Assembly: GCA_919901855.1 (NCBI GenBank)
Contig: CAKKQC010000019.1
Span: forward strand, 33,653-97,652
Direction of reading: 5' to 3'
Source of the DNA: a bacterium
GTDB taxonomy: Bacteria; Oederibacteriota; CAKKQC01
DNA length: 64,000 nt
Shown: piece after piece, positions 1 through 19,163 of the stretch
Layout: each line of letters begins with the position of its first letter
Position numbering within the stretch: position 1 is the first letter of the stretch
Translations under genes and position numbers: made by a program
Notes under the pieces: model-generated
Seen by the model: the letters and a program-made list of their open reading frames with translations, nothing else
Databases searched by the model: none
What the model was told of the DNA's origin: nothing

Positions 1-434
1 TCCTTGAGCTGTTCCTTCCCCTCCGGCGTGCTCACGTCCCGGAAGGTCTTCCCGGACATCTCGCTGATGACGAGGTCCTCGATGAAGGGCATGCGCGCCT
101 TCGCCTCGGTGACGAAGTCGCCGAGCTCCTTCTCCTCGAGCCCCTCGGTGCTCAACTCCACCGTGATGGCGGCCTTGACGTAGTGGTTCATCTCGCCCAG
201 GTTGTAGACCTGGTCCGTCAGCACCATCGCCGGCCCGGGCATCTTCCCCTTGTCCTCGACGGGCTTGGGGGCCCTGACGTTCAGCTTCGTCATCATCAGC
301 ATGACGCCGACCCCGATCGAGGCCAGCAGGAGAACGGCGCTGATGCTGTTGATCGTGATCAGCGAGGTCAGGACGCGCCGGGCTCGCTTCTCCTCGGGCG
401 AGACCTGCTGGGCGGCGGCGACCGGCGGCGGCAC
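1..434 (-). CDS. fliL: Flagellar stator-associated protein FliL (incomplete at window edge)
   Basis: About 144 N-terminal residues are present and the rest lies beyond base 1. The GTG start follows the motB stop by three bases, behind a G-rich Shine-Dalgarno stretch. A short cytoplasmic segment is followed by one hydrophobic helix at about residues 22-48 and a periplasmic domain containing 'YNLGEMNHYVKAAITVEL', as expected for FliL. FliL sits in the inner membrane next to the MotAB stator and modulates torque. Its place directly after motB supports the call. The gene was read by hand translation because no stop codon falls inside the window. Confidence 0.85.
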   Translation of the reverse strand, partial: MPPPVAAAQQVSPEEKRARRVLTSLITINSISAVLLLASIGVGVMLMMTKLNVRAPKPVEDKGKMPGPAMVLTDQVYNLGEMNHYVKAAITVELSTEGLEEKELGDFVTEAKARMPFIEDLVISEMSGKTFRDVSTPEGKEQLK

Positions 435-11990: not shown

Positions 11991-12991
11991 CAGACGAGAA
12001 CCTCCGCTTCGCCGCCGCGGGCCACGGTGATTTCACCCGTTTCCTCGAGCCGGCGGATGACATTGACGATCTTCTGCTGGGCTTCCTCGGAGTTCTTGAG
12101 CCGCACGGGGCCCATGACCTCCATGTCCTCCAGCACCATCTGCCGGGCGCGCTGGGACATGTTCTTCAGGATCTTGGACTTGACCTGGTCGCTCGCGCCC
12201 TTGAGCGCCAGCACGATGTCCTTCTGATCGACGTCGCGCAGGACCATCTGGATCGCGCGGTCGTCGATGAGCATGATGTCGTCGAACACGAACATCAGCC
12301 GCTTGATGTCGTCGGCCAGCTCGGGGGATTCCTCCTCGAGCTTTTCCATGACGGCCTTCTCCGTCGAGCGGTCCATCCGGTTCATGATCTCGGCGACGGC
12401 GCGCACGCCGCCGGCCGCCGCGTACTCCTGCGTGAATACGCTCGAGATCTTGCGCTCGAGGACGCGCTCGACCTCCATGATGACGTCCGGGGTCGCGCGT
12501 TCCATGACCGCGATCCGGCGCGTCACGTCGATCTGGACCTCGGCCGGAAGCTGGCGCAGGACGTTCGCCGCGTGGTCCGGCGACAGGTGCGCCAGGATCA
12601 GGGAAATCGTCTGCGGCCCCTCGTTCTGGATGAAGGTCAGGAGCTGGTGGGGATCCGCCCGCTTGATGAAGTCGAACGGGACGGTCTGGAGGGCCCCCTG
12701 CAGCCGGTTCAGGATCTCGATCGCCTTGTGCGACCCGACGCTCTTCTCGAGGAGGTCCCGGGCGTAGTCGACGCCGCCCTGGACGAGGGCATCCTCGGCC
12801 AGCGACATCTGGTAGCAGTCCTCCATCACGATCTCTTTTTCCGCCGGCGTGATCTTGCGCATGTTCGCGATCTGGAGCGTCAACTGCTCGACCGTCTCTT
12901 CCTTCAGGTGCTTGAGCACCTGCGACGACAGGTCCGGGCCCAGCGCCACCATCAGGATCGCCGCCTTCTGTTCCGCACTCATCCCAGCCAT
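11990..12991 (-). CDS. fliG: Flagellar motor switch protein FliG
   Basis: FliG forms the upper C-ring, takes torque from MotA and binds FliF through its N-terminal domain. The 333-residue length is standard. The N-domain begins 'MSAEQKAAILMVALGPDLSS', the middle domain contains an EHPQ-like 'NEGPQTISLILAHLSPDHAA', and the C-domain holds the charged torque helix ('DDRAIQMVLRDVDQKDIVLA'). It follows the small FliF-tail gene by seven bases. Confidence 0.97.
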   Translation of the reverse strand: MAGMSAEQKAAILMVALGPDLSSQVLKHLKEETVEQLTLQIANMRKITPAEKEIVMEDCYQMSLAEDALVQGGVDYARDLLEKSVGSHKAIEILNRLQGALQTVPFDFIKRADPHQLLTFIQNEGPQTISLILAHLSPDHAANVLRQLPAEVQIDVTRRIAVMERATPDVIMEVERVLERKISSVFTQEYAAAGGVRAVAEIMNRMDRSTEKAVMEKLEEESPELADDIKRLMFVFDDIMLIDDRAIQMVLRDVDQKDIVLALKGASDQVKSKILKNMSQRARQMVLEDMEVMGPVRLKNSEEAQQKIVNVIRRLEETGEITVARGGEAEVLV

Positions 12992-12998
12992 GGTGTCC

Positions 12999-13274
12999 TC
13001 ACCTCCCCTTGAAGCGTTCTTCTTTGAGCCAATGCGTGATGATCTTCGCCAGGAACTCGGGCCGCTCGGCCGCGAGCTGCTTGACGCGCGAACGAATCTC
13101 CTTCTTGCCCGCCGTGAAGGCCGCGGCCGGATCGGCCGGGCCTTCCGCCGCCAACGCGGCCATAGCTCCGTCTTCGCCCAGCAACGCCATCAACAGGTCG
13201 GCGGACATATCGGCGTCCGCCGATATGTCATGGGCCGCTGCGGCCCCGGGCGCGGCGGGCATCGGGTCCGTCAC
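12999..13274 (-). CDS. Small protein carrying a second FliF-like FliG-binding tail
   Basis: This 91-residue protein lies between fliF and fliG, and I do not recognise it as a named family. Its GTG start overlaps the fliF stop (GTGA). The first 50 residues are Ala/Asp/Met rich. The last 33 ('EIRSRVKQLAAERPEFLAK', then 'IITHWLKEER') closely resemble the end of the adjacent FliF ('IRQHVTRMARQRPEMIAS', then 'IIKRWILEEKR'). In FliF that tail is the segment that binds FliG. I infer a soluble FliG-binding partner or competitor. It has no signal peptide or membrane segment. Confidence 0.75.
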   Translation of the reverse strand: MTDPMPAAPGAAAAHDISADADMSADLLMALLGEDGAMAALAAEGPADPAAAFTAGKKEIRSRVKQLAAERPEFLAKIITHWLKEERFKGR

Positions 13275-14956
13275 CGCTTCTCCTCCAGGATCCACCGCTT
13301 GATGATGGACGCGATCATTTCGGGCCGCTGCCGGGCCATTCTGGTGACGTGCTGGCGGATCTGCTGGCGGCGCTGGCGCTCGAGGGCCGCCGTGGGCTCG
13401 GGCTCCATGAGCAGGGGCGGCGGCGGCGCGATCTCCTCGGACGGAGGAGGCGGCGGAGGAGGTGGCGGCGGCGCGGCCGGCGCCACCTCTTCCACGATGG
13501 GCGCGCCGGCGACTTCCACCAGCACGCGTTCCCGCACGATCCTCGGGCGCACGAGCGCGCGCACGAAGACGAGCGTCAGCAGCACCACCCCCACGATCGT
13601 CCCGAATTTCGCCACGTCCAGCCACACCTGTTCCTGCTCCTTCCGGTCGACAGCCGACCGCTCGGCCGCGATTTGATCCATGAGGGTCTTGTCGAACGGC
13701 AAATTCTCGACGGCCACCTGGTCACCGCGCACCGGGTCCAGCCCGACCGCGGCCGCGACGGCCCGCTCGATCGCGGTCTTCTGCTGCACTTGCACGTTGT
13801 CCACGAAGACCGCGATCGAGAGCCGCTTGATCGCCCCCGGCGCCTTGATCACTTCCTCGACCTTCTCGTTGATCTCGTAGTTCCTGGTGTCCTCGTTCTT
13901 GGCATAGGACAGGTTGCCGCCCACGACCGCCTGGTACCCGGGGATGTTGCTCTCGACGCCGGGAACGCCGCCCGGGATGCCGCCCACACCCGTGTAGGTC
14001 TCGGTCTTGTGCTGGGTGCTGCGCGCGATGCCGACAGGGCCGACCACGGGCTCGAAGCTCTTGCTCGTGGACCTGACCTGGTCGAAGTTCAGCTCCGCGG
14101 TCACCTTGACCTCGGCCCGGCCCTCGCCGAGCACCTTGGTCAGGATGTCCCGGACCCGGCGCTCGAGGTCCCGCTCGACGGCCGCCTGCACCGCGAGTTG
14201 GCCCTGCGCGAGCTTGGCCTGCCGCGAGAGCTGGCTGGTCGTCGCCTCGGGGTTCGCCTCCTCCAGCAGTTCGTCGCGGACGAGGTCCGAGAGGACGTTG
14301 CCGAAGACGTCGACGACCTTGACGTTCTGGGGCTTGAGCCCCTCGACGCCCATGGCGACGAGGTGAATGATGCCCCGGACCTGGCCGGGTTCCAGCTTGT
14401 ACCCCCGCTTGAGATCGAGGAGCACGGACGCCGTGGCGTCCTGCGCCTTGTCGCTGTAGAGCGAGGGCTGCGGCAGCGCCAGGTTTACCTTGGCGCTCCG
14501 GATCTCGCTGAGGGACATGATCGTGCGCGTGAGCTCCCCCTGCAGGGCCCGCTGCCACGCGACCCGCTGCTGGGCGTCCGTCGTCCCGAGCACCTGCGTC
14601 TTGTCGAACAGCTCGAACCCGACACCGGGCCCCTTGGGGAGCCCCGCGCTCGCGACGGACAACCGAAGATCGTAGACATCCTTGATCGGCACCTCGATCG
14701 TGGCCCCGTCGTCCTTGAGGCGGTACGGCACCCCCGCGGACTTGAGCCTCGAGACGATGGCCGAGGCATCCTCGCGCGGCAGTTCCGCGAAAAGGACGCC
14801 GTAGGCCTCGGGCGGACGCGATACCGCCGCCAGGAGGAACGCCAGCACGACGAACAGCACCACGGGCACGACGGTCACGACCGCCTTCTGCAGGGGCGTC
14901 AAGCGCCCCCACAGCTCCCGGAACCGCTCCAGCATCTGCCGCAGATACTCGCTCAT
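13271..14956 (-). CDS. fliF: Flagellar MS-ring protein FliF
   Basis: FliF assembles the MS-ring in the inner membrane, on which the rotor and export gate are built. The 561-residue protein has a transmembrane helix near residues 25-50 and the ring-building domains (including 'LQGELTRTIMSLSEIRSAKV' and 'GYKLEPGQVRGIIHLVAMGV'). A second helix lies near residue 450. A run of ten prolines follows at about residue 500, before the FliG-binding C-terminal tail ('RPEMIASIIKRWILEEKR'). The proline run should act as a flexible linker. Confidence 0.97.
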   Translation of the reverse strand: MSEYLRQMLERFRELWGRLTPLQKAVVTVVPVVLFVVLAFLLAAVSRPPEAYGVLFAELPREDASAIVSRLKSAGVPYRLKDDGATIEVPIKDVYDLRLSVASAGLPKGPGVGFELFDKTQVLGTTDAQQRVAWQRALQGELTRTIMSLSEIRSAKVNLALPQPSLYSDKAQDATASVLLDLKRGYKLEPGQVRGIIHLVAMGVEGLKPQNVKVVDVFGNVLSDLVRDELLEEANPEATTSQLSRQAKLAQGQLAVQAAVERDLERRVRDILTKVLGEGRAEVKVTAELNFDQVRSTSKSFEPVVGPVGIARSTQHKTETYTGVGGIPGGVPGVESNIPGYQAVVGGNLSYAKNEDTRNYEINEKVEEVIKAPGAIKRLSIAVFVDNVQVQQKTAIERAVAAAVGLDPVRGDQVAVENLPFDKTLMDQIAAERSAVDRKEQEQVWLDVAKFGTIVGVVLLTLVFVRALVRPRIVRERVLVEVAGAPIVEEVAPAAPPPPPPPPPPSEEIAPPPPLLMEPEPTAALERQRRQQIRQHVTRMARQRPEMIASIIKRWILEEKR

Positions 14957-15751: not shown

Positions 15752-16180
15752 TTACGCTCCTGTGATCGCGGTGCGCAGTTGCGCCAGTTGCATGCGCACG
15801 ATCTGCGCCAGCGACTGGTAGAGCACCGTGTTCTCGGTTAGTTTGACCATCTCGGCATCCAGATCCACGTTGTTCCCGTCCGGCCGCAGCGACGTCTCCG
15901 CTCGGACGACGGTGCCCGCCTGCACGTCCTCGAGCCGCGGGACGTCCCCGATCGCGATGTGTTTGGGGTCCGTCACCGCGCCGGAGAGCGCGTCACGGGC
16001 GCCGCCCTGCGCCCGGAGCGCGGCCGCGAGCCGGTCGGAGAACAAGACCTCGGTCCGCTTGAACCCCGGGGTGTCCACGTTCGCCAGGTTGTGCGCCGTC
16101 ACCTCCGCCTGGAGCCGCGAGGCGGCCAGCGCGTTGGTGATGACGGACATCGAGGTCGAGGAGAAGAGCCGGTCGATCAT
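15752..16180 (-). CDS. flgB: Flagellar basal body rod protein FlgB
   Basis: FlgB is a proximal rod protein. Starting from the ATG at 16180 it has 142 residues, with the rod motif 'VTAHNLANVDTPGFKRTEV' and the C-terminal 'EMVKLTENTVLYQSLAQI'. The ATG overlaps the stop of the MerR-type gene (ATGA), so flgB translation is likely coupled to the regulator. A longer in-frame extension upstream is overlapped by the regulator gene and is not family-like. Confidence 0.94.
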   Translation of the reverse strand: MIDRLFSSTSMSVITNALAASRLQAEVTAHNLANVDTPGFKRTEVLFSDRLAAALRAQGGARDALSGAVTDPKHIAIGDVPRLEDVQAGTVVRAETSLRPDGNNVDLDAEMVKLTENTVLYQSLAQIVRMQLAQLRTAITGA

Positions 16181-16431
16181 GTATGCCCTCCGTTCAACTG
16201 GCGGTTCATGACGAGCAGGGCCTTGACCCCGCGCAGGCTGATCCCGCGACCCGAGTACCGCTGGATCCACCGGCACCGTTCGAGGTCGGCGGGACGGAAG
16301 AGCCGGGAGCGGTTCTTCCCGAAGCGCTGAAGCTTGATGATCCCGGCGCGCTCCCAATTCCGGAGCGTCTGCTCGTGGAGGTGGAGCTTCCGGGCGGCTT
16401 CCTTGATGGTGTAGATCACTTCTGTAGCCAT
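16177..16431 (-). CDS. Small MerR-type DNA-binding regulator heading the flagellar operon
   Basis: From the ATG at 16431 this is an 84-residue protein with a MerR-type winged helix-turn-helix ('YTIKEAARKLHLHEQTLRNW', then 'GIIKLQRFGKNRSRLF' and 'DLERCRWIQRYSGRGIS'). There is no room for an effector-binding domain, and no cysteines suited to metal sensing are evident. It is the first gene of the flgB-to-flgE operon and overlaps flgB by four bases. A dyad in its promoter spacer suggests it controls its own operon. I know of no named flagellar regulator of this kind. Confidence 0.85.
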   Translation of the reverse strand: MATEVIYTIKEAARKLHLHEQTLRNWERAGIIKLQRFGKNRSRLFRPADLERCRWIQRYSGRGISLRGVKALLVMNRQLNGGHT

Positions 16432-16467
16432 CTCGCGCTGTGGTCGAGACTCCTTCCCCTTCGAGAA

Positions 16468-16497
16468 ATTGTAGCAACCGTCAATCGGTTCTGTAAA
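16468..16497 (-). promoter_or_regulatory. Sigma70-type promoter of the flagellar operon
   Basis: On the minus strand, TTTACA (16492-16497) and TACAAT (16468-16473) are separated by 18 bases, each one mismatch or so from consensus. The predicted start of transcription is near 16461, about 30 bases before the regulator's ATG. The slightly long spacer is typical of MerR-controlled promoters (often 19 bases). Confidence 0.65.
16476..16490 (-). promoter_or_regulatory. Candidate MerR-type operator in the promoter spacer
   Basis: AACCG-N5-CGGTT is a perfect inverted repeat centred in the spacer between -35 and -10, exactly where MerR-family dimers bind. A second short palindrome, CTGTAAAACAG (16491-16501), overlaps the -35 box. 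Confidence 0.5.
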
Positions 16498-16715
16498 ACA
16501 GCTACGAAAACCATTATCAAGGCGCCTCCGTCGAACAGCGCGTTTTGCGAGGGCTCCCCCGGCAGGTGGCCTGGCCCTCCTTGTTGAATGGAACCACGCG
16601 TTTGGCCATCCCGCAAGGCCCCCCCGGAACCGAAAAGCTTGCTGGAGGCTCATTTCGTGGCCCGAAAGGGGTGTCCTGCTCGATTTTGCAGCGCTCCCCC
16701 GCTTACGGGCAGAGG

Positions 16716-16734: not shown

Positions 16735-17994
16735 GATCTCCCGTTCGTAGGTGCGGATGGCCGCAATCCAGTCCTGGCCCGCGGGGACACCCTGAAGCTC
16801 GCAATGGCGGTCCCAGACGGCCCCAAACGGCATCGTTTTGGCCGTTTCGAGGAGCGCGAGCCGGCCGAACATGTCGCCAGCGGCCTCGCACTCACGAATG
16901 CGAGCTCCGGGCTCGAGGAGCGCCAGCAGGAGGCCCTGCTGGACGGCCCTTGCTCCGGTCACCCAGGCGCCCACTCGATTGAGACTCGCGTCGAAGTAGT
17001 CGAGCGCGAGCACGACGCGGTCCAGTGCCCGCGCGCGTACGACTTCCTCCATGACGGCCCGGATCTCGTCGTTCAACACGACCACGTGGTCGCTGTCCCA
17101 CCGCACACCGCGGCTCAGGTGCAGGAGCACCTTCGGAGAGAATTGGAGGACGGCCGAGATCTTGTCCGCCACGGACTCCGTCGGATGGTAATGCCCTAGG
17201 TCGAGGGTCGGCAGGAGGCCGTGCTGGAGCGCGTAGGCGAGGTAGAACTCGTGCGACCCCACAACGAAGGCCTCGGAGCCGATGCCGAAGAGCTTGCCCT
17301 CGATCGCATCGACCAGGAGCTTCGCGTCCTGGCGGTCCGCGTAGATCGCGTCGAGTGATTCCTTCAACCAGGCCCGCCGCTGAAACCGGTCCGCGGGATG
17401 ATCCTTGCTCCCATCCGGAATCCAGAGGTTGTGCACACACGCGCTCCCCAGCTCGCGCCCCATCGCGGCCCCGATCGTCCGGCAACGGCGCACGTGCTCG
17501 ACCCAGAAGGCACGTATCTTGGGATCGGCGTTCGCGAGCGTGAACCCGTCGGCCGCCTCCGGGTGGGAGAAGCAGGTGGCGTTGAAGTCGAGCCCGTACT
17601 TCTTCGCCTTCGCCCACGCGATCCAGCCCGCGAAATGCTCGGGGCTGATGGCGTCACGGTCAACGGCCTTCCCTCCGAACTCGCCGTACATGGCGTGGAG
17701 GTTGACCCGGTGCGGACCCGGGATCAGCGAGAGCGCGCGGTCGAGGTCGGCCCGGAGCTCGTCCGGCGTCCGCGCGCGGCCGGGATAGTTGCCGGTTACC
17801 GCGAGCCCGCCGCCGCCGTCGAGCGTCGCGCCCGCCCGCTCGAACCCGCCCACGTCGTCGCCCTGCCAACAGTGAATCGAGAGCGGGAGGCGGGCGAGCG
17901 CGGCGAGGGCGGCGTCGGTGTCGACGCCCATCTCGGCGGCGTACCGGTCTCGAGCCTCCGCGTGTCGGCGCCCGACTTCCCCTGCATCCTTCAT
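16717..17994 (-). CDS. rhaA: L-rhamnose isomerase
   Basis: RhaA converts L-rhamnose to L-rhamnulose in the cytoplasm with a divalent metal. The 425-residue length agrees with the E. coli enzyme (419). Characteristic blocks are '[13 protein letters not shown]', '[19 protein letters not shown]', '[12 protein letters not shown]', '[11 protein letters not shown]' and '[18 protein letters not shown]', the last with metal-ligand Asp and His. No rhamnulokinase, aldolase or transporter lies nearby, so its pathway cannot be read from context. Side activity on other sugars is possible. It starts 26 bases after the DUF2283 gene. Confidence 0.9.
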
Positions 17995-18020
17995 TTCCCT
18001 GCCCGCCAGCGCAAGGGCCG

Positions 18021-18245
18021 CTAGGCCAGCGGCTTCGCGGGAACGAGCCCCTGGGGAAGGGCCTGAGCCTCTATGCGCGTAAGGTCGACGATCTTGCTTG
18101 CATGGTCGATGTCGATGCCGACGATCAGTCCATTCTCGTCAAAGTCCACGGCGACTCCGGGGGCGACATCCACGGTCGTTGCGCTGGCTCGCTCCGACAA
18201 ATCAATGTAGAGCGAATCCGTTTCCGCGTAGTAGTTGAAGGTCAT
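18021..18245 (-). CDS. DUF2283 family protein
   Basis: This 74-residue protein has the DUF2283 pattern: '[17 protein letters not shown]' at the start and '[20 protein letters not shown]' in the middle. The family's function is unproven, but it commonly follows a DUF4258-type gene. The ATG overlaps that gene's stop by four bases (ATGA), as in many toxin-antitoxin pairs. I infer an antitoxin-like role with low certainty. Confidence 0.8.
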
Positions 18246-18490
18246 CGTCCCACCCCCTTGAAGTCGCGGTCAGCGAAGGCATTGTGCACCGTCTCCCCAT
18301 CCTCCAGCGTGACCACACGTATATGCTTGCCGATCTCGGAGATGAATGTCCAGTGCCGAATACGGCCATCCTGCTGGACTTCCCTGCGCAATGGCTGCTG
18401 AATGGCCCGCTGGCAGTACTCCTTTCGCAGATAGGGGCGCTTCCGCAGAACCTGTTCTTCGAAGTACCTGGTCGTCTTCAGCGACGCCAC
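18242..18490 (-). CDS. DUF4258-like protein, candidate toxin
   Basis: This 82-residue basic protein resembles DUF4258 members by 'YFEEQVLRKRPYLRKEYCQR', 'DGRIRHWTFISEIGKHIRVV' and 'DGETVHNAFADRDFK'. These are often suggested to be RelE-like toxins because of size and pairing with DUF2283, as here. No catalytic residue set can be confirmed by eye. Confidence 0.75.
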   Translation of the reverse strand: MASLKTTRYFEEQVLRKRPYLRKEYCQRAIQQPLRREVQQDGRIRHWTFISEIGKHIRVVTLEDGETVHNAFADRDFKGVGR

Positions 18491-18545
18491 CGCGTTCCAG
18501 TCCTCCCGACGAACCTCACCGCAGCCTCACGACCCGTCACAGCCC

Positions 18546-18797
18546 TTACGCATTCATCTCCCTGGCAAGATCCCCCGGCTCATACTGGAAGGGGCTGACC
18601 TTGAGCCGGTTGAGGGCCTCGAGGAACTCCACCCGGCTCAGGCCGGCCAGCTCGGTCGCCTTGGCCTGCGACAGCATACCGGCCTCGAACCACTTGGCGG
18701 CCGCCGCCACCTTCATGTCGCGCGCGAGATCCTTCGGCCGCCGCCGCATGGCGGAAAATGCCGAATCCGGCAGCGATATCGTCACTTGAACGCTCAT
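18546..18797 (-). CDS. UPF0175 family protein (antitoxin-like)
   Basis: The 83-residue protein starts 'MSVQVTISLPDSAF' and has the UPF0175 core 'AAKWFEAGMLSQAKATELAG', followed by 'LSRVEFLEALNRLKVSPFQY'. The middle looks like a helix-turn-helix. UPF0175 proteins usually precede a PIN-domain toxin; none is found here. The next gene, 55 bases on, is the DUF4258-like protein. It may be an orphan antitoxin or belong to a three-gene module. Confidence 0.85.
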   Translation of the reverse strand: MSVQVTISLPDSAFSAMRRRPKDLARDMKVAAAAKWFEAGMLSQAKATELAGLSRVEFLEALNRLKVSPFQYEPGDLAREMNA

Positions 18798-19163
18798 GGA
18801 TTCCTTGTGTCTCCTCTTCAGAGGGTACCACAACCGCGCCGGATCGCGCGCCCTTATCGCAGCCCCGTTCGAAGCCCCCGCACCTGCCGACACATCCAGA
18901 ATCCAATGGGAATGACGGAAGGTAGGCTGCTTCCCGACGCCCCGGCCAGTCGTCACCCCCCAGACGTACCGTTAGTGTCCCGTCGTGGCTCGTGGGGGTC
19001 GTTTACCCGGGGTTGGGGTGGGCGCGCGCGCCCCAAGGCGTAGGCCCCGCCCCCGGCGGGTAAACACTGTGGACCCTACATTGAACCCTACACCCCCGAC
19101 GCGTCGTGGCCCCGGGTGTCCTCAGCTGGCCGACGGCCTCGCGGTCGTCCCGCCACAAACACA
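18798..19163. other. Intergenic region with inverted and tandem repeats
   Basis: No gene is supported here. Bases 19001-19065 are bounded by an 8-bp inverted repeat (GTTTACCC/GGGTAAAC) and contain a self-complementary GGGCGCGCGCGCCC. Directly beside it, 19069-19092 is a 12-bp imperfect tandem repeat (GTGGACCCTACA then TTGAACCCTACA). The region separates the bamA terminator from the UPF0175 gene. Confidence 0.55.

Follow-up and report, generated by a model that had tools for sequence, protein, structure and literature searches.

A small protein encoded between fliF and fliG that resembles the FliG-binding tail of FliF

Does a short reading frame between fliF and fliG encode a second, detached copy of the FliF tail, and what could such a protein do in a flagellar motor? 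The N-domain of the switch protein FliG (FliG_N) changes conformation and co-folds with the C-terminal tail of the MS-ring protein FliF into a unit resembling the FliG middle domain (FliG_M), and coevolution is found mainly in the final twenty tail residues (PMC6079021, PMC7355467). This co-folded domain is held to couple the rotor rings and to keep the subunit numbers of the MS ring and the C ring equal (PMC7355467). Reported Salmonella motors combine an MS ring of 33 subunits with a C ring of 34 (PMC11087270), an arrangement that would leave a FliG_N site without FliF. The frame examined here lies in a stretch of 64,000 nucleotides from a member of the Oederibacteriota, referred to as the window, and it was compared with relatives in the same phylum and with genomes of other phyla.

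The gene and its product

The frame at 12999-13274 is a genuine gene between fliF and fliG (Table 1). A sequence-only reading had given its position and product correctly and had left out the strand, which is minus. The GTG start overlaps the TGA of fliF in the sequence GTGA, the Shine-Dalgarno sequence GGAGGAG lies 5 nt upstream of the GTG, and the ATG of fliG is found 7 nt past the stop codon, so that the coupling to fliF and the position ahead of fliG that had been described are borne out by the sequence context. The GC contents at the three codon positions (0.68/0.52/0.83) are of a coding type and similar to those of the neighbouring genes. The gene forms part of a flagellar operon on the minus strand of the window together with fliF, fliG, fliH and fliI, the latter two assigned from position and sequence. 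An artefact of a single-contig assembly was rejected because a genome of another family (G005) shares the arrangement. The remaining motor parts FliM, FliN, MotA, MotB and three FliL proteins are present in the genome of the window (G000). A profile search of this genome identified a single FliG and nothing else resembling FliG_N, which leaves FliG as the only evident partner.

Table 1. Positions of the small gene, its neighbours and associated features (window coordinates unless a locus is given)
Feature	Position	Strand	Details
Stand-alone FliF-tail gene	12999..13274	minus	91 codons, GTG start; ATG alternative at codon 5
Small-protein tail segment, residues 57-87 (KKEIRSRVKQLAAERPEFLAKIITHWLKEER)	13014..13106	minus	FliF-only tail profile E 3.6e-6; predicted helix-hinge-helix
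Small-protein Ala-rich N-terminal part, residues 1-56	13107..13274	minus	Predicted mostly disordered; pLDDT mostly <50
Shine-Dalgarno GGAGGAG of the small gene	13280..13286	minus	Within fliF 3' end
fliF, MS-ring protein, 561 aa	13271..14956	minus	TIGR00206, E 8.4e-93
FliG-binding tail of FliF itself, residues 530-561, intact	13274..13369	minus	
fliG, switch protein, 333 aa	11990..12991	minus	TIGR00207 and PF14842; sole FliG in genome
FliG N-domain, proposed partner, residues 1-105	12677-12991	minus	
FliL paralogues (G000:C19, L099)	17595-18062, 18073-18558, 18572-19087		Last extends into window 1-434

The 91-residue product has no transmembrane segment, with a maximum 19-residue hydropathy of 1.27 against the usual threshold of 1.6. 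It had no Pfam or NCBIfam match and thus neither the YscJ_FliF nor the YscJ_FliF_C domain, both of which are found in the adjoining FliF. Profiles of FliS, FliT and FlgN from Pfam and NCBIfam did not match it at E values up to 1, a search in which short proteins can be missed. Nothing relevant was returned when the protein alone was compared with PDB sequences, and there was no match among plasmids.

A profile was constructed from eleven FliF tails of other genomes, leaving out both the window FliF and the small protein. Among 1017 open reading frames of the window it matched only two, FliF at E 9.6e-8 and the small protein at E 3.6e-6. Local alignment of the small protein with FliF scored 82, where the best of 5000 shuffles reached 54, and a search of the whole genome with the small protein recovered the FliF tail (E 4.7e-4). 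The last 31 or so residues of the small protein are therefore almost certainly homologous, as judged from sequence, to the FliG-binding tail of FliF, and the resemblance first noted by eye is upheld. DNA identity between the two tails is 57%, which indicates that the duplication was not recent.

In a numbering of 30 tail columns, the stand-alone tail retains A12, P16, A20, I22/I23, W26 and E29/E30. The basic pair before the tryptophan, K/R-K/R in all FliF tails of the phylum that were compared, is lost in the stand-alone tails, where it reads TH, TY or KA. A helical-wheel estimate places most of the changes in the stand-alone tail, including the lost basic pair, on the other face of the helix. 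Residues 1-56 are poorly conserved.

Occurrence in the phylum and beyond

Forty-five genomes of the phylum were sampled and twenty-five contained a strong tail match. A tail outside FliF was found in three of these (G000, G001 and G005), so that the gene is rare, although the absence from relatives that the sequence-only reading had named as a refutation did not come about. In G005 a homologue of 60-62 residues is located exactly between fliF and fliG, encoded by a separate gene that starts about 75 nt past the fliF stop. G001, of the same family as the window genome, encodes an 82-residue homologue (E 8.2e-12) outside fliF in a non-flagellar neighbourhood. The fliF contig of G001 stops short of the tail, and no fliG was found in this genome. 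In a comparison with G000, the radical-SAM and small-membrane-protein genes of this neighbourhood were found at two other loci of G000, neither with a tail gene, and the G001 contig carrying the tail gene may be misjoined. No second tail was detected in the 23 other phylum genomes with fliF beside fliG, where gaps of 1-30 nt between the two genes (100 nt in one) leave no room for a tail gene.

Between G000 and G001 the tail had a pN of 0.21 and a pS of 0.75, and with a pN/pS pair of 0.32/0.75 in addition the tail appears conserved across genera and families. A13, L19 and K21 are common to the three stand-alone tails and do not occur in those FliF tails of the phylum that were compared. The best tail tree groups the three stand-alone tails with weak support (76/81), the G005 stand-alone tail is about equally close to the tail of the G005 FliF, and G000 and G005 are not joined in the FliG tree. 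The stand-alone tails may go back to a single early origin followed by losses, to a transfer, or to duplications that arose in parallel under a shared constraint. A suspected FliF-FliG fusion in G004 was rejected as it consists of two separate frames.

The tail profile was run against about 1500 further genomes. As the survey was uneven and the profile tuned to tails from this phylum and a small number of others, rarity elsewhere is only roughly known. Nearly all matches occurred once per genome and within FliF-sized frames; a second match was recorded in G752. Short frames were checked and rejected as stand-alone tails, being contig ends or a frameshifted FliF in G603, and a weak match in G1299 was rejected since it lacks the tail motif and resembles a small protein encoded next to motA/motB-like genes. 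The FliF of G603 (L087, G603:C44) falls into two overlapping frames ahead of the tail, owing to either a frameshift or a faulty assembly.

Two tail-only proteins were identified in other phyla (G1399 and G1508), both membrane-anchored through an N-terminal transmembrane-like helix that precedes the tail. The G1399 protein, of 85 residues, is encoded between fliG and a gene for a short FliF with the YscJ_FliF_C domain only. Its tail is by far the closest to that of the neighbouring FliF (score 95 versus 62 for the next), and the gene therefore looks like a separate duplication. The cluster in question (L100 2134-5490) brings together the short FliF, the anchored tail protein, FliG and a FliM with the middle domain only, and may represent a non-flagellar FliF/FliG/FliM system. 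The 109-residue G1508 protein is encoded far from fliF at a non-flagellar locus (L101 5624-6903), where its gene overlaps the end of a DnaJ-type gene, and its tail was closest, among those compared, to the FliF tail of Frackibacter. The detached tails of G1399 and G1508 are independent-looking in origin.

Predicted packing on FliG and possible roles

An AlphaFold2 probe was built from the window DNA as an artificial single chain of the small protein, a three-residue linker and FliG_N, with a FliF tail joined to FliG_N from G004 as a control. The tail of the probe was predicted as a helix-hinge-helix (helices 57-70 and 72-85) with block pLDDT values of 85-88 over residues 61-80. FliG_N blocks had values of 73-90 and residues 1-50 averaged below 50. 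Together, the probe tail and FliG_N superimposed on 4fq0_C, a FliG middle domain, with 79 of 80 residues aligned, 1.9 Å and Z 8.1, a placement that is biased because the alignment of the probe contains FliF-tail/FliG rows and the linker is artificial. The control gave 79 residues, 1.9 Å and Z 9.2 against the same structure; pTM was 0.59 for the probe and 0.69 for the control. The top matches to non-flagellar structures reached Z 4.1 in the probe list and 4.5 in the control list, and the probe matched the FliF-YlxF model 9a67_B more weakly (Z 5.4). Probe and control agree that the modelled tail packs on FliG_N as the FliF tail does, in line with the groove proposed earlier, and the probe serves as a check of consistency and does not prove binding. 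The small protein probably binds FliG_N in the groove used by FliF.

In the co-folds of known structure (PDB 5TDY from T. maritima and 5WUJ from H. pylori) a homologous tail of about 31 residues has the same core residues, and for the small protein a helix-hinge-helix with the same packing on FliG_N is predicted. In contrast to those systems, the tail here is carried by a separate small protein without an anchor or ring-building domains, and FliF retains its own tail. This FliF tail is intact and outscores the stand-alone tail, which argues against the suggestion that the small protein replaces a missing contact. What stands of the proposed second FliG-binding tail is, as far as sequence can tell, a tail of that type carried by a separate protein that lacks a transmembrane segment and is conserved in part of the phylum.

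The favoured explanation, in which we have moderate confidence, is that the detached tail completes FliG_N instead of FliF and thereby allows FliG to exist or to assemble with no FliF bound. In this mechanism the small gene encodes, as the sequence shows, a detached FliF C-terminal tail with its core pattern kept, and the predicted helix-hinge-helix would complete FliG_N where the tail of FliF sits, so that one FliG_N could hold either FliF or the small protein and not both. FliG_N might then fold and persist without FliF, a step suggested by the absence of a membrane anchor and by synthesis between FliF and FliG from one operon. If binding occurs, a role as holder or filler is somewhat favoured. 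As a holder the protein would keep new FliG until hand-over to the MS ring, and as a filler it would occupy FliG_N in C-ring subunits without FliF and loosen the 1:1 rule between FliF and FliG. The anchored relatives fit a filler or an extra anchor better than a soluble chaperone, and the position before fliG fits either. The flagellar chaperones FliS, FliT and FlgN are likewise small proteins encoded beside a putative client; unlike these, the small protein takes its binding element from FliF, and FliG does not belong to the exported substrates. Counting against the mechanism are the lower confidence of the probe model than of the control, the lost basic pair, the G001 gene away from flagellar genes and the many flagellated relatives, the majority, without the gene.

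A competitive brake or clutch that displaced FliF by binding FliG_N and so disconnected the switch ring from the MS ring, with excess protein lowering motility, would use the same predicted site and would suit a protein without an anchor, and the G001 gene outside the operon could be separately regulated. The gene sits, however, within the fliF-fliG operon in the window and in G005, so that synthesis of the protein presumably accompanies that of the motor, and it has no regulatory domain; such a role is unlikely. It is quite unlikely that the gene is a translated and functionless by-product of duplication of the fliF 3' end. Its rare and patchy occurrence in the phylum and the poor conservation of the N-terminal part are what a by-product would display, but the tail persists between genera and between families, pN being well below pS, the Trp, Pro and core residues are retained, the Shine-Dalgarno sequence is strong and two other phyla have tail-only proteins.

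The tail could also target another partner such as a different FliG_M- or MgtE_N-like domain, since the weaker match to 9a67_B indicates that other such domains exist and the G001 and G1508 genes are distant from the flagellar operon. Against this, the FliG_N profile matched only FliG in the genome and fliG is the next gene in the window, G005 and G1399, which makes another partner very unlikely. Finally, the frame of the small gene is open upstream into fliF (a 240-codon open frame) and overlaps the fliF stop, as would be needed if ribosomes changed frame where fliF ends and so produced a minority of two-tailed FliF subunits. No slippery heptamer was seen at the junction, a Shine-Dalgarno sequence precedes the GTG and the small gene of G005 is separate from fliF, and such a frameshift is highly improbable.

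Wider meaning and neighbouring genes

Neither Pfam nor NCBIfam nor the open-licence papers covered by a non-exhaustive search describe a stand-alone FliF tail; the tail module is known and its deployment as a separate protein appears undescribed. Engineered Salmonella FliF-FliG fusions (PMC7355467) indicate that the FliF-FliG link is alterable, with changes in C-ring size and rotation bias, although there two proteins were joined and here the tail is detached from FliF. Detached FliF tails may, tentatively, be a recurrent and unrecognised motor part through which FliG number or folding is untied from a 1:1 relation with FliF. Under that equally tentative reading the tail became detached more than once, unanchored in this phylum and membrane-anchored in G1399 and G1508. 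With similar detached tails in a few distant bacteria, a fixed one-to-one pairing of the FliF and FliG rings may not hold everywhere. A natural second tail, if true, would compete for the FliG_N site and could keep FliG folded before assembly or permit unequal rings, and the long-running debate on MS-ring and C-ring symmetry would become testable by the deletion of one gene. The small protein would also offer a native ligand of FliG_N, with binding predicted, of fewer than 100 residues as a tool.

Other features of the flagellar genes were observed. The G004 genome has a second, divergent fliF-fliG pair besides the standard pair (L047, G004:C110). Three tandem FliL paralogues (all PF03748) are located between motB and fliM in the same cluster as the window genes. 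A gene judged by eye to encode a MerR-like regulator is directly upstream of the flgB-flgC-fliE-fliF operon in the window (16177-16653) and in G001 (L017 426-680). The FliF of the window features a run of ten prolines between the second membrane helix and the FliG-binding tail, and the G001 FliF also has one.
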